A DNA stretch of 33,542 nucleotides from a bacterium. GTDB taxonomy: Bacteria > JAJVIF01 > JAGGVT01. Under the pieces are notes generated by a model. It ran no database searches. It was not told the origin of the DNA and saw only the letters and a program-made list of their open reading frames with translations. Below are positions 3,826 to 32,708 of this stretch, in pieces; positions within the stretch are counted from its first letter, which is position 1; each line of letters begins with the position of its first letter. The DNA lies in assembly GCA_021157815.1 (NCBI GenBank), contig JAGGVT010000140.1:1-33542 (forward strand). Direction: 5' to 3'. Both the position numbers and the translations under genes were made by a program.

Positions 3826-3998
3826 GTTTAGAGGTTGCCGGGAAAAGCTGCCAACTGTAATTCCTCCCCTTAATCCCCCCGCGAGCGGGGGGAAATATTT
3901 TTGCATTTGCAAACGATTTACCCGGTCTATACACTTGCGAAGGGAAAAGACAACATTCTCCCTCCCCGCTCGCGGGGAGGGCTGGGGTGGGGGCATGG
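3826..3998. repeat. Family A repeat, copy A1 (right end decayed)
   Basis: The left end at 3826-3847 (GTTTAGAGG then CGGGAAAAG) matches the terminal inverted repeat of copies at 7369 and 25413. The core, 3860-3998, is nearly the same as 25463-25597. It carries the palindrome CCCCGCGAGCGGGG near 3877 and a second at 3961-3980 (CCTCCCCGCTCGCGGGGAGG). No matching right arm is visible, so this copy is probably truncated. It encodes nothing convincing. Confidence 0.8.
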
Positions 3999-4016
3999 TG
4001 TTATTATAATACACAA

Positions 4017-4946
4017 TCACTCCTGCATAATTTTACTCTCTATCTCCTCGTGTATCTCAATAATCATCCTCTGGCGCATCATCGCATCGCTTTTGCTTTT
4101 GCCAGCAAGTTTCAATATCGCGCTTTTTGATTTTACTATTTTCATCATTCGTTTGTATGTGTTTATGCAGATATCCCTGCCATAGTGTTTTCTGAAATAG
4201 ATATAAGCGCTTTCAAACCAGCATTTTAATTTGTATTTCGCGACATCATCCGAATCCGGGAACGATGCTCCCGACTCGTGTTCCGCAATAATTCCTGGAT
4301 GAACGTACGCTTTTCTCCCCTGCTCTTTCAGGCGATACGCCAAGTCAACATCCTCGAAATATAAAAAGAAATCCTCATCCATCTGATTTGTAATTTGCCA
4401 TGACTCACGCGGTATCAGCATAAACGCGCCTGTTACAAATCCTGCCTCAAACGGTTCGATTTGCTTTTCAACCGATTTAAACGAGCCTGATTCACCTGAT
4501 GAGATAAACCGTCGAAGACCTGAGAAATCAAGCACGAAAGTATCCGGCGTTGGCAAATCACCGTGAGAGTGAATTGAAGCGTTGTTTGAATCGACAATAT
4601 TCGCGCCAATTATCCCAGCTTCAGATTTGTTTTTGGCAAACTCAAGAGCGATTTTCACAGCGTCATCATGGAGATAAAGGTCTGGATTTATAATCAGCAG
4701 GTAATCCCAGTCTGACATTTCAGCAATGCGATTTACACCGTAAGCGTATCCGCGGTTTTTTTCACCTTGCAGAAGTTTAATATCGGGATTATTTTCTGTA
4801 AGGTATTTAACAGCATCATCCTGCGAACGGTTATCGTAAACGATAATTTCGTGATTGATGTTTTTGACAGAGTTTATCAGCGATTGGAGGCATCGTTCGA
4901 TTGTCCCCCTTGAATTGTAGGTTACTATGCCTGTTAAGAGTTTCAT
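4017..4946 (-). CDS. GT2 family glycosyltransferase (rhamnosyltransferase-like)
   Basis: A 309-residue GT-A fold enzyme. The N-terminus reads LLTGIVTYNSRGTIERCLQS followed by IIVYDNRSQDD, the nucleotide-sugar binding half of GT2 enzymes. WDYLLIINPDLYL supplies the metal/donor acidic site. FFLYFEDVDLAYRLKEQGR and the following HESGAS match the acceptor-side motifs of WbbL/RfbF-like rhamnosyltransferases. No membrane helices are evident. It lies on the opposite strand to the first glycan cluster and downstream of a TolQ-like gene, separated from it by a hairpin array. The ATG at 4946 has no clear Shine-Dalgarno sequence. The family is firm; the sugar specificity is inference. Confidence 0.87.
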   Translation of the reverse strand: MKLLTGIVTYNSRGTIERCLQSLINSVKNINHEIIVYDNRSQDDAVKYLTENNPDIKLLQGEKNRGYAYGVNRIAEMSDWDYLLIINPDLYLHDDAVKIALEFAKNKSEAGIIGANIVDSNNASIHSHGDLPTPDTFVLDFSGLRRFISSGESGSFKSVEKQIEPFEAGFVTGAFMLIPRESWQITNQMDEDFFLYFEDVDLAYRLKEQGRKAYVHPGIIAEHESGASFPDSDDVAKYKLKCWFESAYIYFRKHYGRDICINTYKRMMKIVKSKSAILKLAGKSKSDAMMRQRMIIEIHEEIESKIMQE

Positions 4947-4947
4947 T

Positions 4948-5175
4948 AATAATAATCGCTAATTCACACAATACCCCGGCGAAGGGACGCCGGGTTACAA
5001 GTTCAGCTTGTAGCCCGGTTTCTCATTAACCGGGATAAATGATGGCTGATTCACATAAGACCCCGGCGAAGGGACACCGGGTTACAAGTTCAGATTGTAG
5101 CCCGGTTTCTCATTAACCGGGGAAAATAATCGCTAACTCACACAATACCCCGGCGAAGGGACGCCGGGTTACAAG
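4948..5175. repeat. Family C tandem array, 87-bp period, two hairpins per unit
   Basis: The box CCCCGGCGAAGGGACGCCGG occurs at 4974, 5061 (one base different) and 5148, exactly 87 bp apart. Each box folds as CCCGGCG / loop AAGGGA / CGCCGGG. Between boxes lies a second hairpin, CCCGGTT / TCTCATT / AACCGGG, at 5014-5034 and 5101-5121. The flanking bases (ATAATCGCTAA, TCACACAATA) also repeat. Related boxes are found at 22200 and 22254. Confidence 0.9.
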
Positions 5176-5192
5176 ATAATTTTCCATCCGGT

Positions 5193-5219
5193 GTCATTCC
5201 GGGCTTGACCCGGAATCCA
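5193..5219. repeat. Family E palindromic repeat, copy 1
   Basis: GTCATTCCGGGCTTGACCCG followed by GAATCCA; a close copy lies at 32761-32787. The core CCGGG-CTTGA-CCCGG is a hairpin. On the minus strand this repeat supplies the last seven codons and the stop of the TolQ-like gene. Confidence 0.85.
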
Positions 5220-5814
5220 TCAGTGTCTCCATGAAATCCTCCGCGTCAAGGCGAACATGAACCATGACATTGTTGATTCGCCTGATCAGGAAATTGAAAA
5301 GGATGACAGCCGGGACGGCAACAATAAGCCCGGATGCTGTAGCTATAAGCGCCTCTGCGATTCCCGAACTCACGCTTCCGTACGCTGCCGGATCAGCATC
5401 CGAAAGTGCTCTAAACGCGCGAATGATTCCAATCACCGTTCCAAACAATCCGACAAACGGCGCTGTGTTTCCGATTGTTGCAAGCCATCCGACACCACGC
5501 GCCAGTCGATTCTCGAATCGTTTAATCGCGCGATCAAGCATCCTGAGACCATCATTGATTTTGTTTGTGGTTTTGGTAATTTCCGCGAGGCGGTAGTATA
5601 GAGCGAAAAGCGGGTCATCAACGCAACCAGCGAGTTTTTCCTTGTCGCTGTCAATTACTGCCTGCTTGAGTTCGTCAATTTTCCTTCCGATTTTAGAAAG
5701 GAAAAAAAACTTCTCAAGCGTAATCGCTATCACCACGATTGAGAAAATCGTGAGGATATACATTACGAATCCGCCCTGCTGAAACCAATGTTCTGTGCCC
5801 AGATCAAAATTCAT
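5194..5814 (-). CDS. MotA/TolQ/ExbB-family proton channel subunit, no TolR/ExbD neighbour
   Basis: A 206-residue inner-membrane protein with three predicted helices (about residues 14-36, 108-132 and 150-178). The diagnostic segment is IGNTAPFVGLFGTVIGIIRAF, followed by GIAEALIATASGLIVAVPAV. These belong to the proton-channel helices of TolQ/ExbB, which power outer-membrane or periplasmic work through a TolR/ExbD partner. Here no such partner follows: downstream are only repeats and then a GT2 gene. The last residues, MDSGSSPE, are encoded by a dispersed repeat, so the original C-terminus may have been replaced. The ATG at 5814 has only a weak AGAGA upstream. Whether it is TolQ, ExbB or another member cannot be decided. 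Confidence 0.88.
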   Translation of the reverse strand: MNFDLGTEHWFQQGGFVMYILTIFSIVVIAITLEKFFFLSKIGRKIDELKQAVIDSDKEKLAGCVDDPLFALYYRLAEITKTTNKINDGLRMLDRAIKRFENRLARGVGWLATIGNTAPFVGLFGTVIGIIRAFRALSDADPAAYGSVSSGIAEALIATASGLIVAVPAVILFNFLIRRINNVMVHVRLDAEDFMETLMDSGSSPE

Positions 5815-5947
5815 GTTTGTTGTCTCTTGTATGTTTGATTAGCTCAGGAATCCTGTCGTTCAAAATTCTGCTATTTGCTTTTCCGGTTTTCTTCATCTCA
5901 AATAATGCAATGAATATATCGACAGTTTCATTCGTTCATTTCCGGTT

Positions 5948-6610
5948 TTACCGGATATATCTGACTACCTCGCCAAGAGGTTTTCGGTTTGCTTCCTTTG
6001 GCGCCTGCGATGGATACCCGAATGCCACAACCGCAACCAGCCTGCCCTCTTTTATTTCAAGAATCCTCTCGATTTCATCCTTCGCCACAATAGGAGCTGT
6101 CAGCCATACACTGCCGATTCCAAGCGCCCATCCGGCGAGAATCATGTTTTCAATAGCCGCGGATACCGATTGGAGGCCGGACTGCGCATTCTCTCTATTC
6201 TCCCGATAAATCCTGCCTTCCTCGCCAAGCATCGCGTAACTGGCATCGTTGCCTGATATATAAGGAGTAGCCACGCAATATACAGTTAGCGGAGCGTCCT
6301 TAAAAAAGGTCGCGTAAAATTTGGAATATTTAATTGCCTTCTTAGCATCCTTGTCATCGAGAATATCGCTGATTGTGTCGTAGCAGCCGTCGACAATTTT
6401 AGCTATTTTTTTATTGAGTTCCATATTCGTAACAGCGATGAATTCCCACGTCTGCTTGTTCGTGGCGTTTGGCGCGTAATGCCCTGCAAGAAGAATCTTC
6501 TCGATATCCCCATCGCTGATTTTTTCATCAGTGTATTTTCTGATGCTGCGGCGCTCCATTATCATGTCAATCAGTTCAGGGCGCTTTTTGATATACTCCT
6601 CGGATGTCAT
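5948..6610 (-). CDS. Nitroreductase family FMN oxidoreductase
   Basis: A 220-residue protein with the nitroreductase fold. ERRSIRKYTDEKIS near residue 20 holds the conserved Arg-Ser-x-Arg that binds the FMN phosphate. HYAPNATNKQTWEFIAVTN follows (the family usually has AP-S-x-x-N-x-Q-P-W), and GWALGIGSVWLTAP is the central flavin-binding helix. Such enzymes reduce nitro compounds, quinones or flavins using NAD(P)H; the physiological substrate is unknown. The start is supported by GGGAG about 7 nt upstream. It is followed on the same strand, 133 nt later, by the TolQ-like gene. It is divergent from the formyltransferase gene, so the 6611-6703 gap should hold promoters for both. Confidence 0.88.
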   Translation of the reverse strand: MTSEEYIKKRPELIDMIMERRSIRKYTDEKISDGDIEKILLAGHYAPNATNKQTWEFIAVTNMELNKKIAKIVDGCYDTISDILDDKDAKKAIKYSKFYATFFKDAPLTVYCVATPYISGNDASYAMLGEEGRIYRENRENAQSGLQSVSAAIENMILAGWALGIGSVWLTAPIVAKDEIERILEIKEGRLVAVVAFGYPSQAPKEANRKPLGEVVRYIR

Positions 6611-6684
6611 TTCATGTCTCCCGGCATCAAACTGTTATCTTCGAAAGATGTTTCAATTATAGCATTAAGTCTGCTAAAGGCTTA

Positions 6685-6693
6685 TGATAAAAT
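6685..6693 (+). promoter_or_regulatory. Extended -10-like box close to the formyltransferase start
   Basis: TGATAAAAT, with hexamer TAAAAT at 6688-6693, lies 10 nt before the ATG at 6704. If it is a real -10 element, transcription would begin about 3-4 nt before the start codon. The same 9-mer precedes the map gene. No good -35 box is visible. Confidence 0.4.
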
Positions 6694-6703
6694 AACCGTT
6701 GCC

Positions 6704-7369
6704 ATGAACAAAAACAACAAATCATCGGAACTCACAAGCGATATAAGAATCGCATTGTTCGCATCCGGTTCAGGTACGGATGCCAACGCCATTCTCGATG
6801 CGCAGGACAAAGGCTTGATTACTGACGGGAAAGTGGTTCTTCTCGTTTCCACAAAAGATGATGTCGGCTGTATTGATGTCGGAAGGCGTCACGGCGTGGA
6901 TGTTGTAGTTCTGCCGAAGAAAAAGCTCAAAAAGGATTTCACGGTGGAAGTGGAAAAACTTCTGTTGGAACATGGGATAGAGCTTGTCTTCCTCGTTGGG
7001 TGCATTCATAAAATCCCCATTATCCCTGATATTCCCATGTATAACATACATCCGGCAGACACCGGATATCACGGTGGAAAAGGCATGTATGGCGTTAAGG
7101 TTCATCAGAGTGTCCTTGATAAAATCAAAAATGAAATGGAGGATGATATTGAGGATGGAATTAATCGCTGGTTCACATGGATAACCATTCATGAGGTAAA
7201 TGATAAATATGATGAAGGTGAACCGTTCATGAGACTGGCGGTTGAGGTTTACCCCGAATCTGATGACGAGCTTATTCTCCAGAAACGAGTATTGCAATAT
7301 GAGTGGATGATTCTGCCTACAGCGTTGAATGTAGCGATACGCAGGATAAGAATGAAAAAGGGTTTTTAA
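6704..7369 (+). CDS. PurN-like formyltransferase, divergent
   Basis: About 221 residues from the ATG at 6704. The order of motifs matches the formyltransferase N-domain of glycinamide ribonucleotide transformylase. IALFASGSGTDANAI near residue 16 is the phosphate-binding loop. NIHPADTGYHGG near 114 gives the catalytic Asn and His of the N-x-H pair. ITIHEVNDKYDEGE near 160 places an Asp at about 170. The region between the His and the Asp is longer than usual and carries an acidic stretch (EMEDDIED). PurN makes formyl-GAR in purine synthesis; a related 10-formyl-THF or formyl-sugar substrate is possible. No purine genes are nearby. An upstream in-frame ATG at 6614 is less likely, because no homologous residues precede 6704. 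Confidence 0.72.
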   Translation: MNKNNKSSELTSDIRIALFASGSGTDANAILDAQDKGLITDGKVVLLVSTKDDVGCIDVGRRHGVDVVVLPKKKLKKDFTVEVEKLLLEHGIELVFLVGCIHKIPIIPDIPMYNIHPADTGYHGGKGMYGVKVHQSVLDKIKNEMEDDIEDGINRWFTWITIHEVNDKYDEGEPFMRLAVEVYPESDDELILQKRVLQYEWMILPTALNVAIRRIRMKKGF

Positions 7370-7697
7370 AATAGCAGATGGTTTAAGAGCGTGTCGGGAA
7401 AGGCGTTATAATTGGCGACTTACATCATAAGGCGACTGACGTCACAATTGGTACTAAGTCAGGCTCTGGATGATGTTCCGTCATTCCCGCGAAAGCGGGT
7501 TCTTTAGTCTGTCCTCAGAAATCCATTTTTTCTTTTATAGAAAAGTCGGCATCTCGCATTTTTAAATGGATTCCCGCTTTCGCGGGAATGACGGGTTAAT
7601 AAACGAAAAATGATTTCAGTGGCCAATCTTAAGCTTTATCCTTTACTAATTAAAATCAACAACCTTTTTCGATAGGCTCTTAAACTCTTTGCTATTT
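7369..7697. repeat. Family A repeat, copy A3, 35-bp terminal inverted repeats
   Basis: The left arm, 7369-7403, pairs with the right arm, 7663-7697 (28 of 35 bases). Both begin AAATAGCA and contain GTTTAAGAGC. The left arm starts on the last base of the formyltransferase stop codon and the right arm ends 20 nt before the map stop. It fills the gap between two convergent genes. The inner part holds a separate perfect inverted repeat (7478-7594). No open frame of interest lies inside. Confidence 0.88.
7478..7594. repeat. Family D inverted repeat inside A3
   Basis: The arms at 7478-7499 and 7573-7594 are perfect reverse complements over 22 bases, centred on TCATTCCCGCGAAAGCGGG. The 73-base spacer is AT-rich. 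A second copy of this palindrome is at 17570-17720, outside any Family A element, so D is an independent module. Confidence 0.92.
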
Positions 7698-7717
7698 ACA
7701 AACCGTGGGAATAATAT

Positions 7718-8494
7718 CTACGGCCTGTCATCTTCGTTAATGCATGTAAGAATTTCAGGAGCATTGTTTGTAACAAGGAGTGATTCCTCGAAATGGCATG
7801 TGGGCCTGCCGTCTGCTGACGCGATAGTCCAGCCGTCACCGAGAGTTTTTACACGATCATTTCCCGCGACAACCATTGTTTCAATGGCAATAATCATTCC
7901 CGATTTCAGCATGACACCATCACCGGGGTTGCCGTAATTGTAAATCGGTGGGTCCTCGTGAAGCGCGATTCCGACACCATGTCCGGACAGAACTTTGACA
8001 ACATCACAACCCATTGATTGAACGCGGGTCTGTATCGCGTGTGAAATGTGCCCTACTGAATTTCCCGCGACCGCCTGGTCGATGCCGTCGAACATTGACC
8101 ACCTTGTGGCTTTCATCAGATTGTCCTGTTCATCTGTGGGTTCGCCCATAACAATACTAAAAGCGGCATCGGAGTAAAACCCATGGTAAATGAGGCCGCA
8201 GTCTATGCTGACAAGGTCACCCTCTTTGATAGTCCTCTTCGATGGTATCCCATGGACGATTTCTTCATTTATCGAAATACATGTTGTGTTAGGAAACGGC
8301 GGCGGACCATACACTCCCTTGAAAGCCGGTGTTGAGCCAAGACGCAGAATCATATTCTCAGCCTTGCGGTCTATTTCGCGAGTTGTAACACCGATGTGGA
8401 TCTCTTTCTTAATCCTGTCCTCGACTTTTTTAAGAAGCTGACAGGATTTCCTGATTCCATTTATCTGATGTTTGTTCTTTATTATACAATTCAT
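7718..8494 (-). CDS. map: Methionine aminopeptidase, type I
   Basis: A 258-residue enzyme that removes the initiator methionine from new proteins. All dinuclear-metal ligands of the family are present: D98 (SIDCG), D109 (YSDAAF), H172 (GHGVG), E205 (AIETM) and E236 (FEESL), plus the substrate-binding H81 (EEIVHGIP). The length matches type Ia enzymes with no N-terminal SH3 or zinc extension. The start ATG at 8494 has no Shine-Dalgarno sequence, and a TGATAAAAT box sits only 7 nt upstream, suggesting a leaderless mRNA. It stands alone here, away from the secY/infA operon where map is often found. Confidence 0.97.
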   Translation of the reverse strand: MNCIIKNKHQINGIRKSCQLLKKVEDRIKKEIHIGVTTREIDRKAENMILRLGSTPAFKGVYGPPPFPNTTCISINEEIVHGIPSKRTIKEGDLVSIDCGLIYHGFYSDAAFSIVMGEPTDEQDNLMKATRWSMFDGIDQAVAGNSVGHISHAIQTRVQSMGCDVVKVLSGHGVGIALHEDPPIYNYGNPGDGVMLKSGMIIAIETMVVAGNDRVKTLGDGWTIASADGRPTCHFEESLLVTNNAPEILTCINEDDRP

Positions 8495-8501
8495 AATAGG
8501 T

Positions 8502-8510
8502 ATTTTATCA
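8502..8510 (-). promoter_or_regulatory. Extended -10-like box 7 nt before map start
   Basis: On the minus strand this reads TGATAAAAT, followed by seven bases and then the ATG of map. A -10 element here would place the transcription start at or next to the A of the ATG. No Shine-Dalgarno sequence exists in between. Confidence 0.5.
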
Positions 8511-8701
8511 CACTTTGAATGTTCATAAACAATATTTAGTTATTCAATATTACTCATTAGTGCTTTTCATATGGTAAATTAGTCGTATAATAATATATGT
8601 ATTTCTTACCAATACCCGCACAGGAATATTGTCGGGTGATTGGTTATATTTCTTTAAATGAATTCTTATTAAATATGAAACTTCACTCTCAGGAGAAACA
8701 A

Positions 8702-10750
8702 ATGCGCATTTTCTCTCAGTCTCTTATTATTCTAATGCTGTTATTTTTTATCGGATGTTCATCCCAAACATCCACACCGGTTGTTACGCCATCAATGCAG
8801 GACAACGATATGCTGAACCCGTTTGAACGAGTGTCGGCGGCCGCATCAGGCGTTACTCAGCCGTACTGGTCAGATGTGGTTTATTTCGACGGTGAATACT
8901 GGTTTGCACATAAGAACGACAATGGCACTATTCGTCGTGCTTTCGGAAAAGGTGTTTCGGTTTCAGGCACATGCGAGCAGATAATCGATTCACACCCGGA
9001 TTTATTTAAAATATCATCTGACAACCTTGCCAGGATTGAGGATTACACTCATGATGGAATCCGTTATGTTTTCTTCCGACAGGTGGTTGATGATGTCGAA
9101 ATCAAAGATTCAAGGGTTGAATTGCGATTCGCGCGCAATGGAAATCTTATGCTGATTGGCGCGGATGTTTTCCCACAGATTAATATTAACGCAACTCCCT
9201 CTGTTAATTCATCTGAAGCAAGAGTAACCGCGGAAATGGATTCCGGATCGGACAGCAGTGAGCCTGTGTTGGTTATCGAACGAAGGGATTACCGCGATTT
9301 TCACCTTGTGTGGTGGGTTACAAGCGGTGAATATAAGTATCACATTAATGCTCATGATGGCTCCATCCTTGAAATGGAATCACGTAAAATATCAAGCCAC
9401 AGCTGGTCAACGGAATCTGAGATTTATGAATTGTCACCATCCACACCTGTAATTACAATGCCTTATCCTTATCAGAAAAACGATGTCAACATACCCAGCA
9501 GCGGGTATGTGATTAAATACGGCGATAGAGACGGCAACGTTTTCGTGGATACAGAGGATGAATTTATTGATGTGAATTCATGGCTTTTGGGTACCTATGT
9601 CGGTGTCGCACCCTGCGGTGGTTACAATCACGGAAAGATTGAGTGGAGCAGCCAGAACAACGAATCGCAGACTCCCACTTTCGATGATTCAAACTCTCAC
9701 ATGGGTGAGCGCATGGTGGGATACTGGGCAAATGCCTCGTATATCTATGTTAAAAACATTGACCCGACATTCACCGGCCTGGATTTCCAACTTTTCTGCC
9801 AGGCTGACTGCTGCTGCGCATGCAATGCGTTTGCCTACATTGAACCGCCATACAAAATAGCGATGTTTGAAGCTTACAGCGACTGTGTAGCGACAAGCGA
9901 GGTTGCTGATGTTACCTGCCATGAGTACGGGCATATCTATGTCGCAACACAATATACTCTTGGACGCCCACCACTCTCAATTCATGAGGCTTTCGCGGAT
10001 ACGCTTGCCAACGCTGTAACAGCGCAGCCTGAAATCGGAAAGGATATCCGAGGCGCAGGAACCCATTTTAGATCATCCGACAACAAAGTACTTTTCGATA
10101 ATAATGACTGCCACGGCGAAAGCCACTGCATGGGGAATATTCTTGCCGGCGCGCTCTGGGAAGTCAGAGGATTTCTCGGTTACGCATACACCGATTATCT
10201 CTGGCATCAGGCAAGATTCGCGCAATCGTATAGTTTCCCCGAATATGTCGCTGATTTCTACATGATAGACGACGATGACGACAACGTGTTAAACGGCACA
10301 CCAAACGCGGCAATTTTCGAGGAGTGTTTCTGGGATAATCATCACATTCCAATCCCCGAAATGCCTGATATCCCGACCGATGGCGTTGTTATCGATATCG
10401 TTCCGACTGAATTCCCGCTTGAAATGGACAGGTCAATCGGCAACAACCTTTGGTACACAGCAACAATCACAAATCTGAATGATGAGCCTGTTACGTTCGA
10501 TGTCTGGACAGCAGTCGAAACACCATGGGATACATGGTATGGCCCAATGATTCCAGCATCAATCAACATAAAGCAACCAGTTACTCTGCGTCTGGAAGCT
10601 GACCAGGAAATTGTTATCACTGTCAGGCAGTCAATTCCGTTTAATTTGCCGGAGGGTGTATATCGCTATCATGGGAGAATCGGCGAATTTGTTGACCATG
10701 AAAACGACATTCTTCTGGATGACGGCTGGATTGATTTCACACTGTACTAA
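8702..10750 (+). CDS. Secreted gluzincin metalloprotease lipoprotein (M4/M36-like)
   Basis: About 682 residues from the ATG at 8702, chosen because AGGAG lies 6 nt upstream and a lipoprotein signal peptide follows (ILMLLFFIGC, lipidated Cys19). Residues about 50-240 resemble a thermolysin/fungalysin-type propeptide (FRQVVDDVEIKDSRVELRFA, then YKYHINAHDGSILEME). The catalytic site is H407-EYG-H411 with the third zinc ligand E429 in HEAFADTLANAV, as in gluzincins. A run of cysteines (C366, C370-372, C374) precedes the active site, and more flank it, which is unusual for M4/M36. The last ~120 residues look like a beta-sandwich accessory domain. It is probably anchored to a membrane and active outside the cytoplasm, digesting protein. 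An octamer array starts one base after the stop. Confidence 0.85.
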   Translation: MRIFSQSLIILMLLFFIGCSSQTSTPVVTPSMQDNDMLNPFERVSAAASGVTQPYWSDVVYFDGEYWFAHKNDNGTIRRAFGKGVSVSGTCEQIIDSHPDLFKISSDNLARIEDYTHDGIRYVFFRQVVDDVEIKDSRVELRFARNGNLMLIGADVFPQININATPSVNSSEARVTAEMDSGSDSSEPVLVIERRDYRDFHLVWWVTSGEYKYHINAHDGSILEMESRKISSHSWSTESEIYELSPSTPVITMPYPYQKNDVNIPSSGYVIKYGDRDGNVFVDTEDEFIDVNSWLLGTYVGVAPCGGYNHGKIEWSSQNNESQTPTFDDSNSHMGERMVGYWANASYIYVKNIDPTFTGLDFQLFCQADCCCACNAFAYIEPPYKIAMFEAYSDCVATSEVADVTCHEYGHIYVATQYTLGRPPLSIHEAFADTLANAVTAQPEIGKDIRGAGTHFRSSDNKVLFDNNDCHGESHCMGNILAGALWEVRGFLGYAYTDYLWHQARFAQSYSFPEYVADFYMIDDDDDNVLNGTPNAAIFEECFWDNHHIPIPEMPDIPTDGVVIDIVPTEFPLEMDRSIGNNLWYTATITNLNDEPVTFDVWTAVETPWDTWYGPMIPASINIKQPVTLRLEADQEIVITVRQSIPFNLPEGVYRYHGRIGEFVDHENDILLDDGWIDFTLY

Positions 10751-10751
10751 A

Positions 10752-10919
10752 GTTAGTAAGTTAGCAGGTTAGCAGGTTAGCAGGTTAGTAAGTTAGCAGG
10801 TTAGTAGGTTAGTAGGTTAGTAAGTTAGCAGGTTAGCAGGTTAGCAGGTTAGTAAGTTAGCAGGTTAGTAGGTTAGTAAGTTAGCAGGTTAGTAGGTTAG
10901 TAGGTTAGTAAGTTAATAA
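10752..10919. repeat. Octamer tandem array, 21 units, with 32-bp higher-order blocks
   Basis: Twenty-one contiguous 8-bp units of GTTAGYAR. GTTAGCAG occurs nine times, GTTAGTAA six, GTTAGTAG five, and the last unit is GTTAATAA. Writing the unit endings, the order is taa-cag-cag-cag, taa-cag-tag-tag, taa-cag-cag-cag, taa-cag-tag, taa-cag-tag-tag, taa. There are therefore alternating four-unit blocks. The array lies between the protease stop and the glycosylase promoter region. It carries stops on both strands and is non-coding. Confidence 0.97.
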
Positions 10920-10978
10920 GAAAAACGTAATTGATGGATTTTGGCGAAAACTGGAATCCATCTTTTGATTTCATGCGA

Positions 10979-10984: not shown

Positions 10985-10992
10985 TTCATCGC

Positions 10993-16015: not shown

Positions 16016-16213
16016 TTCAATAAACCGTGTGGGTGATATTAGATTGAGTAAAAAAGGGGATTGTCCCAACCAAGTGAATAAACACAGTATAAATGAGGGT
16101 TTACAGCATAGTATATTTATAACACCATATTTGAAGATTCATGTGGACGTAACCTGTTATCGGGGAATGCCCCTTTTTTTACGGGGGGCAAATAACCCAA
16201 ATTATTTATTGAA
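16016..16213. repeat. Family B repeat, copy B1
   Basis: A 198-bp element that begins TTCAATAAA and ends TTTATTGAA. Inner arms carry GAGTAAAAAAGGGG on the left and CCCCTTTTTTTACGGG on the right, which can pair into a long hairpin. Copies lie at 29286-29466 (inverted) and 32119-32319. It sits between the two NfeD genes and could act as a partial terminator. A 75-codon frame through it is not a gene. Confidence 0.9.
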
Positions 16214-16260
16214 GCGCTAAATTTTAATTATGAATATTTTCAGCAAGCGGGAATGAAACA

Positions 16261-17438: not shown

Positions 17439-17470
17439 TATTGCGTTGAAATAATATCTTTAAAAAATTG

Positions 17471-17495
17471 CACCATGCTTTTGCATGGTGTTTTT
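17471..17495 (+). terminator. Intrinsic terminator after slipin
   Basis: Stem CACCATGC (17471-17478), loop TTTT, stem GCATGGTG (17483-17490), then TTTTT. This is a perfect 8-bp hairpin with a T-run and marks the end of the NfeD-slipin operon. Confidence 0.9.
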
Positions 17496-17569
17496 ACTAC
17501 ATTATGTTTTTACTAAATTGAAAGAAGACGCTAAAGAATGGTCTTATATCCAAATTGCACTAATAAAAT

Positions 17570-17720
17570 GTCATTCCCGCGAAAGCGGCTGTTGAAAAAG
17601 AGCTGAATGTAGGGGGTAGGTCTCTGTGCCTACCCTAAATATTGGCATAAATACAGGGCAACCACGGAGAGTTGCCCCTACATAATTAGGTTTTTCAACA
17701 GTCCCTTTCGCGGGAATGAC
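17570..17720. repeat. Family D palindrome interrupted by an inserted element
   Basis: The outer arms CATTCCCGCGAAAG (17572-17585) and CTTTCGCGGGAATG (17705-17718) are perfect reverse complements. They match the D repeat at 7478-7594. The centre has been replaced by the 113-bp element at 17589-17701. Confidence 0.88.
17589..17701. repeat. Family G element, 113 bp, nested in a D palindrome
   Basis: Terminal inverted repeats CTGTTGAAAAA (17589-17599) and TTTTTCAACAG (17691-17701). Inside are nested pairs: TGTAGGGG with CCCCTACA, GGTAGG with CCTACC, and GGGCAAC with GTTGCCC. This is the structure of a small non-autonomous transposable element with no coding capacity. The rest of the 17439-17870 gap holds only the terminator and the promoter candidate. 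Confidence 0.85.
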
Positions 17721-17800
17721 GGAATCTTGTTTCTCAGAATCAGCGATGTTTAGCTTTCACGACATGTTCATTAGCATGGCGCTGTTGTTGCGAAGCTCAA

Positions 17801-18335: not shown

Positions 18336-18383
18336 TTATAATAATAATTTATGATTTCATCATATTGGATAAATACCGAACCC

Positions 18384-18399
18384 GGGAGCGCTGGTCTCT
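18384..18399. repeat. Family F fragment between convergent genes
   Basis: GGGAGCGCTGGTCTCT matches 15 of 16 bases of the arm of the large inverted repeat at 32481-32671. It sits in the 84-bp gap between the lipoprotein and oxoprolinase stops. Confidence 0.5.
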
Positions 18400-18419
18400 G
18401 GGAAAAGCATTTTGCCAAA

Positions 18420-22169: not shown

Positions 22170-22282
22170 ATTGGTTTTATTTTTAGTATGGCATGAAAAC
22201 CCCGGCGAGGGGACGCCGGGTTACAATTGGTTTTGTTCTAGTATGGTAGGAAACCCCTGCGAGGGGACGCCGGGTTACAATT
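22170..22282. repeat. Family C repeat, two tandem units of about 55 bp
   Basis: Two copies of a unit starting ATTGGTTTT, each ending in the C-box (CGAGGGGACGCCGGGTTACA) at about 22206 and 22260. The second copy has a C to T change that weakens its stem. The rest of the 22074-22414 gap is AT-rich, without other recognisable signals apart from the oxoprolinase ribosome site and the SMI1 leader. Confidence 0.85.
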
Positions 22283-25412: not shown

Positions 25413-25644
25413 AAATATCAGAGGTTTTTAGAGGCTGTCGGGAAAGGTTGTTTTATATCTCATCCCCCCCTTAGTCCCCCCGCGAGCGGGGAGATGTTTT
25501 TTGCATTTGTAAATAATATATCCGGTCAATACACTTGCGAAGGGAAAAGATAACATTCTCCCTCCCCGCTCGCGGGGAGGGCTGGGGTGGGGGTTTCTTG
25601 TTTGCGGCGCCTTTCCCGACAGCCTCTAAAACACTCTGCTATTC
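25413..25644. repeat. Family A repeat, copy A2, best-preserved terminal inverted repeats
   Basis: The left arm 25413-25447 and right arm 25610-25644 match at 31 of 35 bases; the inner 22 bases (25426-25447 and 25610-25631) are perfect and contain CTGTCGGGAAAGG. The core is the same as in A1, with palindromes CCCCGCGAGCGGGG (25478-25491) and CCTCCCCGCTCGCGGGGAGG (25561-25580). It occupies most of the gap between the convergent methyltransferase and dtd genes. Confidence 0.93.
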
Positions 25645-25669
25645 TAATGTGATTTAACAATCAGACATC

Positions 25670-26119: not shown

Positions 26120-26205
26120 TTGTCACCTCCAAGGTTAAATTATATCATGTTGAGAATATCGATATATTTTCCCGCTCATCAATTGCATCAAACAAATTAG
26201 AGACT

Positions 26206-26406: not shown

Positions 26407-26426
26407 GTGATTAAAATCCAATATTA

Positions 26427-26449
26427 CAAAAGCCCCCGAGACGGGGGCG
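26427..26449 (-). terminator. Intrinsic terminator of the rnf operon
   Basis: On the minus strand: GCCCCCG, loop TCT, CGGGGGC, then TTTT. A 7-bp GC-only stem, 24 nt after the rnfB stop. Confidence 0.92.
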
Positions 26450-26472
26450 ACACAGCCGATGGGACATCAGCG

Positions 26473-27288
26473 TTACGAAACATCCCTGCCAACCCAGATA
26501 AGCATTTCGCGTGGGCATTTCTCCAAAACAATATCCATTGAATCGTTTTCAGGATCATAGTTTTCATAGTCGATAACGGGAACGTTTCCATCCATGGTGA
26601 ATCGCTCGCTGTTTTTGGCACAGGCTTTGCAGCCGATGCATCCGACCTCGCATACATCAGATACTTCCTTGCCAAAATCCTTGCTTGCGCATTTCACTGC
26701 AAGAATTTTATTGGATTTAAAAGGAACCATCGAGATTATATTTCGAGGACACGCTTTCACACACGCGCCGCATCCGACGCAATTTTGATAATCTATTTGA
26801 GCAAGACCATCGATAATTTTAATCGCGTGGTAATCGCAGGCATCAATGCAATCGCCGAATCCAAGGCAGCCGTACACGCATCCCTGCACACCCGCAACCA
26901 GATTAGCCGCGGTACAGGTTTGTTCGCCAAGGTATTCGTTTTGTTTAAGGCGTTGGCTTGATATCGCCGAGCAATGAACTACAGGCCGTGACGGAATACT
27001 CGAACCAATCTCAACGCCCATGATTTCAGCGATTGCCTCAGCGGTTCCGTCACCTCCGGGAGCGCATAAATTGACATCAGCGCCATCATTAACAATAGCC
27101 TCAGCATATTCGTTGCATCCGACATAACCGCATCCACCGCAGTTAGCGCCCGGAAGAGCCTTGCTTATCGCGGTTATTCTTGGATCAACAAAAACATGGA
27201 ATTTCACATTCGCCCATCCGAGAACATACCCCATTAAAAGCGCCAATATCAACATTATCGCTGCAGCCAGAATAATCGTAATCGTCAT
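26473..27288 (-). CDS. rnfB: Rnf complex subunit RnfB (multi-cluster ferredoxin-like)
   Basis: A 271-residue iron-sulfur protein. One N-terminal helix (IILAAAIMLILALLMGYVLG) anchors it. GANCGGCGYVGCNEYAEAI plus a Cys 16 residues on forms the first 4Fe-4S site, near residue 50. Then CVYGCLGFGDCIDAC, CVGCGACVKACP and CEVGCIGCKAC give further cluster ligands. RnfB is the entry point for electrons from reduced ferredoxin. The length is between the short RsxB of E. coli and the longer clostridial form. It is the last gene of the operon and its ATG overlaps the rnfA stop by one base. Confidence 0.96.
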   Translation of the reverse strand: MTITIILAAAIMLILALLMGYVLGWANVKFHVFVDPRITAISKALPGANCGGCGYVGCNEYAEAIVNDGADVNLCAPGGDGTAEAIAEIMGVEIGSSIPSRPVVHCSAISSQRLKQNEYLGEQTCTAANLVAGVQGCVYGCLGFGDCIDACDYHAIKIIDGLAQIDYQNCVGCGACVKACPRNIISMVPFKSNKILAVKCASKDFGKEVSDVCEVGCIGCKACAKNSERFTMDGNVPVIDYENYDPENDSMDIVLEKCPREMLIWVGRDVS

Positions 27289-27986
27289 TATCCGCCACCC
27301 CTCATCAGGATTCCCGCAAGTCCACTGTCAACGCCCGTGAATCCCATAAACGCCATCGCCAGAATCCCGGCGATAATCATTGTGATTCCAGCGCCTTTCA
27401 GCGGTGCGGGTACATCGCAAAGGTCGAGTTCCTCACGTATTCCAGCCATCAGGACAATCGCGATAAGGAATCCGATTCCGCCGAAGAACCCCAGAATCAG
27501 AGCTTTATCTAGTGTCCATGCGCCCGCGCCGACACCGGAAACGTGTTTCATTATTTCCAGGCAAGCAAACAGAATCGCGCAGTTGGTTGTGATTAACGGA
27601 AGATAGACACCCAGCGATTTGTAAAGCGGTGGGTGGAATTTCCGAACGAACATCTCGACAAACTGAACACTTGATGCAATCACGAAGATATACACAATGT
27701 AGTTCAGAATGCTCAGGTCAACGACCATTTCCGAGTTCGGGTTAATCGTGTGGACAATCCACGATGTCAACGGTGCGTTGGGTTGAAGCACAAACCATGT
27801 TAATGTCCAGCTGAGAAACGCGGCGATTGTGATTACAAAAGTAACCGCCAATCCCATTCCCAAAGCGACATCAACACGTCGCGACACGCCGACAAATGGG
27901 CAGATTCCCACGAAATAATGCAGCACGAAATTGTTAATCAGTGCCGCGTTAATCGCTAGAAGTATAAGAGAGCCAACATAATCCAT
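27288..27986 (-). CDS. rnfA: Rnf complex membrane subunit RnfA
   Basis: A 232-residue integral membrane protein with about six helices. [18 protein letters not shown] and [17 protein letters not shown] each carry the Cys that, with RnfE, holds an intramembrane 2Fe-2S cluster and lines the ion path. It is longer than E. coli RsxA (about 193 residues) because of a loop near residues 66-90 ([20 protein letters not shown]). The end overlaps the rnfB start by one base, and the gap to rnfE is 15 nt. Together with RnfE it forms the pseudosymmetric core of the pump. Confidence 0.97.
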
Positions 27987-28001
27987 AGTTTAATTCCTAT
28001 T

Positions 28002-28619
28002 TTAAGCAGTTTGTTTTTTTTTATTCTGCAGCCAGTTTACTAATCCTATAAGAACTCCCAAAGTTAAAAATGCTCCGGGAGGAAGAACCATAATTACCCA
28101 GTCGGGCCATACGGCAGGCATTACGGGAAGTCCGAACCATGTGCCTGAGCCGAGTATTTCACGAACCGTAGCCACACTTGCAAGGGCAAGCGCGAATCCA
28201 AGTGACTGTCCAAGAGCGTCCATAATCGCGGGACCAAGCTTCTGCTTGGATGCGCAAACCTCGCATCTGCAAATGATTATGCAGTTTACGATAATCAGTG
28301 GAACATAGGGACCCAGCTGCTTGCTCATATCCCACATGTACGCCTGAAGGATTCTGTCCGCAATTGTTACAAAAGTCGCGATTGTGAGCGTGAAAACCAG
28401 AATCCTCAGGTGAGGTTTAAGCAGATGGCGAATCAAACTCACGATTATATTCGCGCTAAGGAGCACGAATGCAACAGCGACTGCCATTGTCATCGCAGGC
28501 TCCATACTGTTGGTTACAGCCAGCGTTGGACACATTCCAAGCAGTTGGCGATAAACCGGATTTTCAGGAAGAATCCCGTTTATAAATCTTTCCAATGCTG
28601 TTGGTTCGTTTCTATTCAT
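28002..28619 (-). CDS. rnfE: Rnf complex membrane subunit RnfE
   Basis: A 205-residue protein homologous to RnfA in inverted topology. The N-terminus has NGILPENPVYRQLLGMCPTL, with the cluster-binding Cys and conserved Asn-Pro. The second Cys site is PYVPLIIVNCIIICRCEVCA, followed by AIMDALGQSLGFALAL. There are about six helices. Its 14-nt distance from rnfG and 15-nt distance from rnfA show tight co-transcription. It forms the membrane cluster and ion-translocation path with RnfA. Confidence 0.96.
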   Translation of the reverse strand: MNRNEPTALERFINGILPENPVYRQLLGMCPTLAVTNSMEPAMTMAVAVAFVLLSANIIVSLIRHLLKPHLRILVFTLTIATFVTIADRILQAYMWDMSKQLGPYVPLIIVNCIIICRCEVCASKQKLGPAIMDALGQSLGFALALASVATVREILGSGTWFGLPVMPAVWPDWVIMVLPPGAFLTLGVLIGLVNWLQNKKKQTA

Positions 28620-28633
28620 ATTCGGATTTATCC

Positions 28634-29239
28634 TTATTTGGCATTCGATGCCAATTTATCTTTAATTTCAGCGACCGTTTTATTCACAAGATCCGTGACC
28701 GCGACGGATGATATTGTCGCGCCTGTGACTGCCATAATTTGATTAACAGTCGGGCTTCCAGCTTTGATAACCTCAATCTGGCTTGCGGTTGGCTTGTCAA
28801 CATACTGCATCTGCCAATCCTCTTCAACGATTTTGTTGCCAAGTCCCGGAGTCTCCTTCTGGTCGAGAACATACAGTCCAGTCAGTTTATCCGCTTTTGT
28901 ATCCAGCCCGATGAGAATTTCGACTTTATCCGCGAATCCCTGTCCTGTCGCCGGTACTACCCATCCTACCTGAGCATCACCGCTCATCGCGCGATAGATT
29001 ATTTTTCCATCGATTTCAAATCCCTTACCTGTATCTGAACCGGGAACAAGATTCGGTATCTGGGAGAAAGTTTCGTTCAGTTTGTTCTGTTGGATTTTCT
29101 CACCCAGAGAGATTTGAACACCGGTGAGACTGGCGCCAAAACATACTGCAAGAAGCAATATTAGCCACGCCTGAGCGATATAATTCCCGCCTTTTTCCGG
29201 TGTTTCATCGACTTGTTCTGTTTTTTCTTCTTCTGCCAT
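28634..29239 (-). CDS. rnfG: Rnf complex flavoprotein subunit RnfG
   Basis: A 201-residue protein with one N-terminal helix (about 22-43) and a periplasmic FMN domain. The FMN-binding motif VTGATISS at 171-178 includes Thr175, the residue to which FMN is attached by a phosphoester in RnfG/NqrC. QKETPGLGNKI near 128 is also a family signature. The N-terminal ~20 residues are acidic (MAEEEKTEQVDETPEK) and may be a cytoplasmic tag. The gene is separated from rnfD by repeat B2, so its transcription depends on read-through or on a promoter in the 29240-29471 gap; I see none with good boxes. Confidence 0.95.
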   Translation of the reverse strand: MAEEEKTEQVDETPEKGGNYIAQAWLILLLAVCFGASLTGVQISLGEKIQQNKLNETFSQIPNLVPGSDTGKGFEIDGKIIYRAMSGDAQVGWVVPATGQGFADKVEILIGLDTKADKLTGLYVLDQKETPGLGNKIVEEDWQMQYVDKPTASQIEVIKAGSPTVNQIMAVTGATISSVAVTDLVNKTVAEIKDKLASNAK

Positions 29240-29285
29240 TAGTTTACCTGTATATCAAAAATAACTTACATTTTATTTTCTGCAC

Positions 29286-29466
29286 TTCAATAAATAATGT
29301 GGGTTATTTGACCCCGTAAAAAAAGGGGACAGTCCACATGAGACTTCCAACTTGTTGATTTCAATAAATCTAATTAATAACACCTGTGTTTATCACATTA
29401 ATAAACGTTATTGGGACAGTCCCCTTTTTTTACTCAACCTAAATTCGACCCAAACGATTTATTGAA
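29286..29466. repeat. Family B repeat, copy B2, inserted between rnfD and rnfG
   Basis: A 181-bp element in inverted orientation relative to B1 and B3. The ends are TTCAATAAAT (29286) and ATTTATTGAA (29457-29466). The inner arms GTAAAAAAAGGGGAC and GTCCCCTTTTTTTAC can form a long hairpin with a T-run in either direction. It begins 5 nt after the rnfD stop, in the direction of transcription, so it could attenuate the downstream genes. Confidence 0.92.
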
Positions 29467-29471
29467 AAGCC

Positions 29472-30488
29472 TTATTTCCTAACCGGTACGGGTCCGCCAA
29501 ACGGTACCGGAATTGTCCACTTGTTGATTAACGGCGTGACTGCGTTCATCAGCAATACCGCAAACATAACTCCCTCAGGATATCCGCTGAATGCGCGTAT
29601 CAACATTACAACTGCGGCAAATCCGATTCCGAATATCACTTTACCTTTTGGAGTAAGCGGACTTGTAACCGGGTCGGTTGCGATAAAAAACGCTCCGAAC
29701 AGAAACGCGCCACCTACAAGGTGATGCAGAACTGTCCATTCCGCTGATGTGTTAGTCAGATTGCCAATTCCAGCGAACACAATCAGAGCTGCTATTGCTG
29801 AAACTGGAATTTCCCATGATGCTGTCCGTTTGATGCAAAGGTAAATTCCGCCAAGAATACATGCAATCGCGCTTGTTTCTCCGAGTGAACCGTTTGTGTT
29901 CCCTATTAAAAGTGCCCATAACGGAGTGGACTGCCCAAGCTGTTTAGCTAGAGTTAATGGGGTCGCCTGTGTGAGAACTTCCATTCCACCTGCGACCTGA
30001 TACGCTGCCGCTCCCAACGCCATTGGGAATGCAAAGAGTACAAATGCGCGCCCGACCATCGCGGGATTAAAAATGTTATAGCCCAGTCCGCCAAATGCAA
30101 TCTTGCCGAGGCCTATCGCTGCCATTGAGCCAATAAACGCGACATACCACGGCACACTGGAAGGGAGAGAAAGCCCGAGTATCACACCTGTAACCGCCGC
30201 CGAGTAATCGCCAAGAGTGATTTTCTTTAATCGCCACGATGTGAAAAGCGCCTCGAACGCAAGGCAGGATAAAACTGAAATCCCGACCTGCACAACGACA
30301 TGCCATTTGAAAACCCATATCGCAACTGCCAGAAGTGGAACAAGCGCGATGAGAACATCAATCATCATTTTCTGCGTGGTGAATGCAGTATTCGACAGAT
30401 GCGGTGACACTGTCACCTGAATCGACGGATTTATTACGGGTTTTTCAACCTTTTCAGCGGTTTTTACTTTATCTGTATTTTCGTTCAC
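29472..30488 (-). CDS. rnfD: Rnf complex subunit RnfD (membrane flavoprotein)
   Basis: A 338-residue protein with about nine helices. LGYNIFNPAMVGRAF near residue 136 is the NqrB/RnfD family signature. VLTQATPLTL near 171-180 contains Thr176 in the A-T-P-L context that carries covalent FMN in homologues (usually SGATPL). The N-terminus (30 residues) is cytoplasmic and charged. The start is GTG at 30488, 46 nt after the rnfC stop. It links RnfG and the RnfA/E core in the pump. Confidence 0.96.
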   Translation of the reverse strand: MNENTDKVKTAEKVEKPVINPSIQVTVSPHLSNTAFTTQKMMIDVLIALVPLLAVAIWVFKWHVVVQVGISVLSCLAFEALFTSWRLKKITLGDYSAAVTGVILGLSLPSSVPWYVAFIGSMAAIGLGKIAFGGLGYNIFNPAMVGRAFVLFAFPMALGAAAYQVAGGMEVLTQATPLTLAKQLGQSTPLWALLIGNTNGSLGETSAIACILGGIYLCIKRTASWEIPVSAIAALIVFAGIGNLTNTSAEWTVLHHLVGGAFLFGAFFIATDPVTSPLTPKGKVIFGIGFAAVVMLIRAFSGYPEGVMFAVLLMNAVTPLINKWTIPVPFGGPVPVRK

Positions 30489-30534
30489 AGTCGTACGCTC
30501 TTTGTTGTTGGTTCATTAATCATTTTTCCCGGAT

Positions 30535-31890
30535 CTATTCCTTTGGCATTAACGCTTTGCCAATTCTAATCAATTGAACAAGCGGTACGCTTGCCGGGCA
30601 TGTGTAAGCACAACTTCCGCACTCCACGCATGCAAGAAGGCTATATGCCTTTGCGGTATCCCACGCTTTGTACTTCGATGCCATCGCTATTTTAGTCGGC
30701 ACCAAACCCAACGGGCAGACATCGACACATCGCCCGCACCGTACACACGTTGTTTCGGCCGCTTTTTTGATTTCATCGTGCGTGAGAATTGTCAAACCGC
30801 TTGTGCCTTTTGTAACCGGTGAGTCCATATCGCCGATTGTGAATCCCATCATGGGACCGCCTGATACAGCGCGTGCCGCATCGGGCTTGAATCCACCGCA
30901 GAATTCAAGAACATCGGAATATGATACTCCGATTGGAACAAGAAGGTTTTTCGGATTTACCACTCCGGCGCCTGTAACAGCCATGATGCGGTGTGTTAAC
31001 GGTTTCCTACGCAGTACCGCTCGCGCGACCGCAGTTGCTGTTCCAACGTTGATAACCACGACTCCGACATCGAGAGGAAGCCCCAAAGTTGGGATTGTCC
31101 TGTTCACAACCGCTGGTACAAGTGACCGTTCCCCGCCCTGCGGATATTTTGTTTTCAACGGAACAATTTTTACCGGCGTGCCCTCAGCTGCTTTTTTTAG
31201 AATTTCTATCGCTTTAGGTTTGTTGTCCTCGACTCCAATCGCGATATTTGTCGCGCCAACTGCCTGAGCTGCCAGAAGTGCTCCGGTTATAATTGGTGCG
31301 GGAGCTTCCACCATAAGGCGGTAGTCGGATGTCAGGTACGGTTCACATTCGCAGCCGTTTATAATAAGAGTATCAATCGGTTTTTTATCGTTTTTGGCGA
31401 ATTTAACATGAGTCGGAAAAGCAGCGCCGCCCATTCCAACGATTCCGGCATCGCTGACAGCTTTCTGGATTTCCTCCTGCTTGTACTTCTCAAGCCCGGT
31501 TGTAGGCCAGTCGCCGCCAAATACATCATCCCACAAAGCCTGGCCCTCGAGCTGTTCACCGTCCGCTTTAATCGGGACACAAGACACGTGACGTCCTGTC
31601 GGCAATGTTCGCATTACAGTTTTAGCGGTTTTACCGTTGATACTCGCGTGAATCGGGGCTGAGACAAATCCGCCTGCCTCGCCAAGAATATCGCCCACTC
31701 GAACATCCACACGCGGCTCAATCGCAAGTTTACATGGCGCACCGATATGCTGAATCAGCGGGATAATAACCTGTTTCGGAGTCGGGAAGATTTCGATTTG
31801 CGCATCCTCGGCAAAACTTTTCCTGTGCGGTGGATGCACTCCTCTTGCGAATGTTCCTTTACCAATTAGTGTTGTATTAGTGCCAGTCAT
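30535..31890 (-). CDS. rnfC: Rnf complex subunit RnfC (NADH-binding, two 4Fe-4S)
   Basis: A 451-residue peripheral subunit, the first gene of the rnfCDGEAB operon. DAGIVGMGGAAFPTHVK (148-163) is the NADH/FMN site shared with complex I NuoF. INGCECEPYLTSDYRLM (177-193) follows. Two 4Fe-4S motifs lie near the C-terminus: C382-C385-C388-C392 and C421-C424-C427-C431. RnfC exchanges electrons with NAD. The complex couples ferredoxin oxidation by NAD to ion export (Na+ or H+), or runs in reverse to make reduced ferredoxin. The start ATG at 31890 has AGGTGAG upstream, with a promoter at 31929-31957. Confidence 0.97.
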   Translation of the reverse strand: MTGTNTTLIGKGTFARGVHPPHRKSFAEDAQIEIFPTPKQVIIPLIQHIGAPCKLAIEPRVDVRVGDILGEAGGFVSAPIHASINGKTAKTVMRTLPTGRHVSCVPIKADGEQLEGQALWDDVFGGDWPTTGLEKYKQEEIQKAVSDAGIVGMGGAAFPTHVKFAKNDKKPIDTLIINGCECEPYLTSDYRLMVEAPAPIITGALLAAQAVGATNIAIGVEDNKPKAIEILKKAAEGTPVKIVPLKTKYPQGGERSLVPAVVNRTIPTLGLPLDVGVVVINVGTATAVARAVLRRKPLTHRIMAVTGAGVVNPKNLLVPIGVSYSDVLEFCGGFKPDAARAVSGGPMMGFTIGDMDSPVTKGTSGLTILTHDEIKKAAETTCVRCGRCVDVCPLGLVPTKIAMASKYKAWDTAKAYSLLACVECGSCAYTCPASVPLVQLIRIGKALMPKE

Positions 31891-31928
31891 TTCTCACCTT
31901 TATCTTTTCGAACAAACAAACGCGGAAT

Positions 31929-31957
31929 ATATTAGCAGAAGTTAGCCTTTTTGTGAA
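31929..31957 (-). promoter_or_regulatory. Sigma70-like promoter for the rnf operon
   Basis: On the minus strand TTCACA (31952-31957), an exact 17-bp spacer and TAATAT (31929-31934). This would give a leader of about 30 nt containing the AGGTGAG ribosome site of rnfC. It is the best match to a standard promoter in the window. Confidence 0.65.
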
Positions 31958-32118
31958 GAGATTCACTTTTCCAGATTGAAAGTGTGATAAAATAATAATG
32001 CTATACTTGCTTGCTGTTTAGCCTCAATATGTGATTTATCACCCTCAACGTATATTGTCCCTAATTGTGTGTGACCAATTTTTACTATTTATTTTTCTGT
32101 GATTATTAAAAAAGGCTC

Positions 32119-32319
32119 TTCAATAAATCGAGTGGGTTGAGTTTGGATTGAGTAAAAAAAGGGGAATATCCCAACCAAGTGAATAAACACAGTATAAATA
32201 AGGGGTTACAGCATAGTATATTGATAACATCTGATTTGAAGCCTCATGTGGACGTACACCGTTATCGGGGAATGCCTCTTTTTTTACGGGAGGGCAAATA
32301 ACCCACACAATTTATTGAA
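32119..32319. repeat. Family B repeat, copy B3
   Basis: A 201-bp element, ends TTCAATAAAT and ATTTATTGAA, closely matching B1 along its whole length (CCAACCAAGTGAATAAACAC and CATGTGGACGTA shared). It lies upstream of the rnf promoter in the 1068-bp intergenic region 31891-32958, which holds no gene I can support; a 62-codon minus-strand frame inside the repeat is not a gene. Confidence 0.92.
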
Positions 32320-32457
32320 GCGCCAAAAGTTTAAAATGACGCATGCAGCACCTCAATCGTATGAATGGATAATAAAGTTATGAACCGTTTCACTTGATAA
32401 TGACATCATGAACTCAATTTGAGTATCAGAATTCCCAATTTTAAATGGGATGCAGGG

Positions 32458-32708
32458 GTTTAATAGTTTTTCGGAAAATGTTTTCCCCTGGGAGCGCTGG
32501 TTTCTAACCGGCACTTGGACAGACTAACTAAAATGTAAAAAAGTGCATCTTACAAACATGGTTGATTAACTCAACGCCTATTTATAGGTATGTCGTTTGT
32601 TAGACAAGCTTAATTGATTTCTATTAACCTAACACAAGTGCCGGTTAGAAACCAGCGCTCCCAGGGGAAAACAAAGTAATAATTGGCTTTCCCGACCATC
32701 TCTTAAAC
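32458..32708. repeat. Family A repeat, copy A4 (degenerate left end)
   Basis: The left end 32458-32480 (GTTTAATAG then TCGGAAAATG) and the right end 32685-32708 (reverse complement GTTTAAGAG then TCGGGAAAGCC) match the Family A inner arm. The cargo is a 191-bp structure with 37-bp perfect arms (next entry), not the cargo of A1 to A3. Confidence 0.75.
32481..32671. repeat. Family F inverted repeat, 37-bp perfect arms
   Basis: The arms at 32481-32517 and 32635-32671 are reverse complements at all 37 positions; the arm includes CTGGGAGCGCTGGTTTCTAA. The 117-bp spacer is AT-rich with no open frame. A short fragment of the arm occurs at 18384-18399. Confidence 0.95.

Follow-up and report, generated by a model that had tools for sequence, protein, structure and literature searches.

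A MITE family that probably inserts into hairpin loops and carries several kinds of hairpin cargo

The four repeat loci described here are very probably copies of an IS1182-like MITE that inserts by structure into hairpin loops and has several times acquired hairpin cargo. The loci lie in one contig of 33,542 nucleotides (contig C163; hereafter, the window) of a draft genome that comprises 221 contigs and 3.2 Mb. The element, named M, is a short multicopy element with 17-bp terminal inverted repeats and without a transposase; the genome holds at least 55 complete copies, mostly 192–201 bp in size. M would land in the tip of a short intergenic hairpin and the loop would be duplicated, so that each half of the old stem comes to resemble an additional outer arm.

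RESULTS

Repeat loci in the window

The features of the window are given below. X, Y and D are target hairpins, T is a second family of elements, and A, D and F are cargo lineages; all of them are described in the following sections.

3827..4005, + strand: truncated A-type M; TTTA at 3827-3830, left end GAGGTTGCCGGGAAAAG from 3831, A interior to ~3993, right end lost, then GCATGGTGTTATT, the right half of hairpin Y (A-lineage consensus compared by eye)
7370..7386, + strand: hairpin X left stem AATAGCAGATGGT and target duplication TTAA (7383-7386); empty X copies occur elsewhere
7387..7679, + strand: M of the D lineage, 293 bp; D hairpin uninterrupted, T-filled in the relatives at C198 and C149
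7478..7594, no strand: cargo D, inverted pair of GTCATTCCCGCGAAAGCGGG hairpins
7680..7696, + strand: second TTAA (7680-7683) and hairpin X right stem
17470..17491, no strand: empty hairpin Y target GCACCATGCTTTTGCATGGTGT
17570..17720, + strand: T-filled hairpin D; stems 17570-17580 and 17710-17720, GAAA before and TTTC after T
17585-17705: T element inside hairpin D, with IS1182-like end GCGGCTGTTGAAAAA
18380..18400, + strand: solitary repeat F fragment GGGAGCGCTGGTCTCTG
25414..25430, + strand: hairpin X left stem and loop copy TTTA
25431..25626, + strand: M of the A lineage, 196 bp, complete
25627..25643, + strand: loop copy TAAA and hairpin X right stem
32464..32702, + strand: M of the F lineage, 239 bp, left end decayed; flanking TTAA at 32460-32463 and 32703-32706
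32479..32673, no strand: cargo F, inverted pair with 39-nt perfect arms 117 nt apart
32707..32716, + strand: hairpin X right-stem remnant

The initial annotation had described four loci with shared arms and differing interiors. Shared arms were recovered at 7370-7696, 25414-25643 and 32464-32716, those of the first two being good, and the interiors of these three loci do differ. At 3826 the right arm is missing and the left one is weak; this locus is an A-type copy that has been truncated and fused to half of hairpin Y. Decay is severe in the left arm at 32458 (E 0.28). A GAGCGGGG core is common to the first and third copies, as had been reported. The sequences taken for continuous palindromes are perfect inverted repeats with separated arms: that of D at the 7369 locus is 22 nt long as described (7478-7499 / 7573-7594, 73 nt apart), and that of F in the fourth copy measures 39 nt instead of 37 (32479-32517 / 32635-32673). 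D and F sequences recur in the window at 17570 and 18380-18400, respectively, and a scan of ten proteins from the window revealed no transposase, both in agreement with the first reading. A search for named RNA families in the window and in four genomic loci returned just one tRNA near an M copy, listed twice in overlapping loci, and none for the elements.

M has 17-bp ends and at least 55 complete copies

Searched genome-wide, the arm sequence RGTTTAAGAGNNTGTCGGGAAAGG (24 bases, up to 3 mismatches) gave 77 matches versus 0 for the reversed pattern, which is far above chance. The arm had been regarded as one unit of about 35 bp. When all paired arms were listed with their flanks, the outer half covaried between left and right within a copy, and the inner 17 bp, GAGCSTGTCGGGAAAGG, remained constant; the arm is thus two things. 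The inner 17 bp is the true end of M and the mobile part, whereas the outer half is a target-site hairpin, which is found alone at ~40 loci.

The census was compiled from pattern searches, which covered the first 100 of 144 end matches, and from fetched stretches of the genome; the count of at least 55 copies misses those with more degenerate ends. The copies are at separate loci, nearly all of them intergenic. A bias toward convergent gene pairs, an impression from the window, did not hold for the genome as a whole (9 convergent, 31 tandem and 8 divergent pairs). The arm had 0 matches in three genomes of the same class and one match, with 2 mismatches, in 36 more distant genomes; a scan of GTDB genomes gave two isolated matches, the level expected by chance. 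No relative among those searched carries M, and none supplies orthologous empty sites for this draft genome.

One set of ends encloses unrelated hairpin cargos

By their interiors, the M copies fall into lineages A (21 copies), B (22), C (4), D (3) and F (3); the remaining two are one A/B chimera (C103:31580) and one M/T hybrid (C83:2060). The consensus lengths of A, B and C are 198, 197 and 194 bp, respectively, and M usually measures 194–201 bp. Despite the near-equal length, a test by alignment gave no homology between the three interiors: the alignments are no better than those of shuffled sequences (z −1.2 to 1.0), and A, B and C have just the ends in common. All five cargos contain an inverted pair of short hairpins and are REP/BIME-like in this respect. 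Identity within a lineage is 85–88% on average, and it includes the non-palindromic spacers between the M end and the cargo. Because the identity extends to these spacers, each lineage has spread as a whole unit, and every lineage was found in at least two target families.

A single set of ends encloses five or more unrelated palindromic interiors. Arms and cargos do not form fixed pairs, nor are the cargos confined to the arms: A, B and F were counted outside M, and D is found without M both within the window and in the role of a target. There are 93 sites of repeat B genome-wide, repeat F forms ~40 inverted pairs, and A-type sites also exist beyond M. The modular organisation originally proposed is upheld on both points. 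The idea that the arms are a shell taking up hairpins copy by copy fared less well, for each cargo lineage was amplified together with its ends and conserved spacers; exchange of cargo would therefore be rare and subsequently propagated. Modularity survives for the lineage and not for the individual copy. At 81 of its 93 sites, repeat B is invariant over 24 bases; it often stops abruptly after its first half, at a fixed boundary, and this suggests recent spread with one-sided truncation.

The genome contains nine Y1/RAYT-like genes, five of whose loci were read. All five match the NCBIfam model of REP-associated tyrosine transposases, below its cut-off on the scanned fragment. The gene at C65 abuts an F repeat and that at C56 is near a run of 12 C-type repeats; no A, B or D repeat was seen beside the genes at these five of the nine loci. 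The cargos look like REP/BIME units with a mobility of their own that were picked up by M and T. One could go further and suppose that RAYT (Y1) transposases put REP/BIME units into M repeatedly, exchange being RAYT insertion and M mainly a recipient. The number of RAYT-like genes, the position of two of them beside F and C-type repeats, and the abundance of cargos B, F and A outside M all speak for this. However, the conserved spacers between end and cargo point to few events that spread as whole units, no cargo-free M was found in the pattern-based census of at least 55 copies, and the occurrence of each lineage in several different hairpins means that M itself moves. We consider this explanation unlikely, although RAYT insertion may be the route by which the first cargo entered M.

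M sits in the loops of unrelated hairpins

M copies are located in the loops of at least four hairpin families. Hairpin X (AATAGCAGAGGGT...ACCCTCTGCTATT) is insert-free at ~40 other loci, and hairpin Y (CACCATGC TTTA GCATGGTG) is empty at dozens of loci. The other two are hairpin D (GTCATTCCCGC GAAA GCGGGAATGAC) and the weaker hairpin Z (CCTCGAAC GTTA GTGAGAGG). Representatives of X, Y, D and Z are predicted to fold with the 4-nt loops TTTA, TTTA, GAAA and GTTA, respectively; taken alone, the fold of Z is not significant (z −1.17). Left and right stems agree in 36 of the 39 M copies that could be assigned (X 18, D 7, Y 6, Z 5), compared to a mean of 12.7 and a maximum of 26 for shuffled flanks. 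The other three copies have mixed flanks (D-X, X-Z and Z-Y). The arms had been proposed as a preferred landing site for hairpins, and here the roles are reversed: it is M that lands, and it does so in the loops of X, Y, D and Z. Hairpin D serves as both landing site and cargo.

With the inner 17 bp taken as the end of M, an exact 4-bp direct repeat flanks 29 of 55 M copies, and 42 of 55 have one with at most one mismatch; 26 copies are without an exact duplication. When the right tetranucleotides were shuffled within each target class, 17.3 exact duplications were expected and none of 5000 shuffles reached 29. Direct repeats are a trace of transposition, whereas an uninterrupted palindrome would yield complements. 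Among M copies whose loops are not self-complementary, 15 have direct and 5 have inverted loop copies; the direct ones include TTTA/TTTA, TTTC/TTTC and TAAC/TAAC. We also rebuilt and folded the empty sites of 48 M and T copies with a duplication. In 24 of these sites the duplicated bases coincide exactly with the predicted loop, in 17 they overlap a loop, and in 7 they lie outside any loop. The stems are kept on both sides and the loop is duplicated, which does not match the stem-loop replacement of IS1272.

Some copies in D hairpins have inverted instead of direct loop copies, among them the T-filled hairpin of the window at 17570..17720 (GAAA / TTTC). Simple duplication of the loop does not predict this, so that later conversion of an arm or recombination is needed; our guess is later homogenisation of both arms.

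The same flanks bear on two further explanations. M might be one MITE whose terminal repeats measure 34 bp, so that the element includes the outer half of the arm and the copies differ through decay or pairing-preserving drift. The X stems are the commonest flank, and for this reason the consensus arm does look like a single 34-bp repeat. Yet the inner 17 bp is also flanked by three other unrelated stems with agreeing sides, X and Y occur without M, loop copies are more often direct than complementary in the informative copies, and all insertions in D, Y and Z would have to be recombinants. We rejected this very improbable explanation, as the outer stems fall into four separate hairpin families. 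It is also very improbable that the nested palindromes arose without any transposition, through template switching and through homologous recombination of inverted repeats: this would suit the A/B chimera, the three mixed flanks and the inverted loop copies, but the numerous complete copies at separate, nearly all intergenic loci, with precise ends and duplications equal to the loop, are signatures of transposition, and recombination fits better as a secondary process.

A second family, T, probably links M to the IS1182 family

T elements, with ends GGGGCTGTTGAAAAAG, are present in more than 20 copies in the loops of D, Y, F and other hairpins. T is flanked by 4-bp duplications in 8 copies and by 5-bp duplications in 7. 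Like M, T encloses different cargos: E in elements of 129 bp, C in those of 188 bp, and others at 164 and ~208 bp.

Both families are found nested in hairpins of M. T fills the D loop of two D-lineage M copies, one at C198 and one at C149, where TTTC flanks it on either side; the same loop is empty in the D-lineage M of the window (7387-7679), which thus forms a filled/empty pair with them. M itself is nested in D hairpins belonging to other M copies at C131 and C36:1905. At 17530-17785 of the window there is a possible fossil of a further M, directly downstream of the filled D hairpin: a right-end-like AGCTTTCACGACATGTTC is followed by ATTA and half of hairpin Y. If it is one, the arrangement would be a Y[M[D[T]]] nest.

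Ends of the GGGGCTGTTGAAAAAG type, at L213:1304 and 2296, bound a decayed gene at C90, probably that of an IS1182-family transposase (DUF772, DDE_Tnp_1_6; NCBIfam NF033551); this bounding was seen for T ends. The NF033551 matches fall on two pieces of the one decayed gene (E 3.6e-32 and 1.1e-19), each below the curated cut-off. M is tied to T since cargo C with its spacers is common to both families, aligning over nearly its full length, and since the C83 hybrid has one M end and one T end. Both families insert in hairpin loops, which matches a trait of the IS1182 family, some members of which target palindromic or hairpin sites. M most likely belongs with IS1182, given the similarity of the T ends, the shared cargo C, the single M/T hybrid and this behaviour.

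No autonomous transposase with the ends of M was found, and among the DUF772 or DDE_Tnp_1 genes found in the draft genome none is an intact transposase gene with M's own ends. This fits the early suggestion that M moves in trans, and a trans-acting enzyme is likely because decayed IS1182-family IS with related ends are present in the genome. Separately, an apparently intact 353-codon IS5/IS1182-like transposase frame was noticed at C155:6681-7739 (L211:1309-2367). It was discarded as an autonomous M; its ends, GGTACCGTTGCAAAA, are unrelated to those of M and T.

DISCUSSION

A possible mechanism

M would most likely be mobilised in trans by an IS1182-family DDE transposase. Target recognition by shape is suggested by the use of at least four unrelated hairpin sequences by M, and T, with 4-bp duplications in tetraloops and 5-bp ones in other hairpins, would behave in the same way. 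We infer that an IS1182-type transposase recognises the extruded hairpin and cuts at the stem-loop junctions. In its general form, this proposal is tentative, and we give it somewhat less than even weight: a DDE pathway that reads hairpin geometry and cuts both stem-loop junctions of an extruded cruciform, making the duplication equal to the loop (4 bp for tetraloops, 5 bp for larger loops). If true, any suitable hairpin is a landing site; as M and T carry hairpins, they would be landing sites for each other, and nested hairpins with exchangeable cargo would build themselves up.

For the exchange of cargo, we infer that both families insert next to or within REP-like hairpins, among them those carried by other M copies. 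If two adjacent or nested elements then each contributed one end, or recombined, the outcome could be a new unit whose ends are unchanged and whose hairpin cargo is new.

Relation to known systems

In staphylococci, two members of the IS1182 family, IS1272 and TnSha1, select hairpins as targets by their structure, whatever the sequence; the stem-loop is deleted or replaced and no target duplication arises (PMC5678879, PMC4923244). Wan et al. drew loop duplication only as a hypothetical alternative, 'pathway c' (PMC5678879, PMC4923244). M and T resemble these elements in hairpin targeting that appears to be structure-based, in largely intergenic or terminator targets and in a probable IS1182-family DDE transposase. 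Different from IS1272, M and T are non-autonomous and have differing cargos under the same ends, and they keep the stem and mostly duplicate the loop. The cut positions can therefore be read from the sequence and are directly testable.

Tobes and Pareja described insertion sequences in REPs (ISPsy8, ISRm22, ISPpu9/10, IS1397 and IS621), some at the hairpin axis and each with one REP consensus as target; ISPsy8 and ISRm22 insert at the symmetry axis with 3- and 6-bp direct repeats (PMC1525189). In contrast, M uses at least four unrelated hairpins, and M and T are MITEs that themselves hold REP-like cargo.

Like the bacterial MITEs Chunjie and QMITE2 (PMC10969869), M is short, intergenic and non-coding, with terminal inverted repeats and target duplications. 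Unlike them, it has five unrelated interiors, all with palindromic pairs, under one set of ends in one genome, and it targets loops specifically. Cargos A–F are inverted pairs of short hairpins as in REP/BIME and REPIN systems with RAYT (PMC2817692, PMC3116915, PMC3733652), and RAYT-like genes are present; different from those systems, the REP-like units are here both landing sites and passengers of DDE-type MITEs.

The combination of unrelated hairpin targets, loop duplication and varied hairpin cargos was not found described in the open-licence papers searched. The best reading is that M and T are a variant of known behaviour, that of insertion sequences in REPs and of IS1272 in stem-loops. 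Target choice by shape is known for a DDE transposase mainly from IS1272, whose hairpin is destroyed. M and T would also show in concrete terms how DNA transposons can come to carry REP-type hairpins, and would account for puzzling extended, covarying inverted repeats in intergenic DNA and for a genome that holds hairpins nested in hairpins.

Other repeats of the window

A further palindromic intergenic element has three copies in the window (16031-16233, 29259-29482 and 32103-32339), with ends like GGCGCTTCAATAAATTGTGTGGGTT and a core AAAAAAAGGGG...CCCCTTTTTTT. Copies of this element also interrupt the A-type M at C146:3280 and the IS1182 remnant at C56. Between two genes, at 10752-10923, an 8-bp unit (GTTAGCAG / GTTAGTAG / GTTAGTAA) is repeated head to tail about 20 times, and similar GTTAGCAG runs lie beside other repeats elsewhere in the genome. 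Three tandem 87-bp units built on CCCCGGCGAAGGGACGCCGGGTTACAAG occupy 4951-5211, with related single units at 22197-22282.
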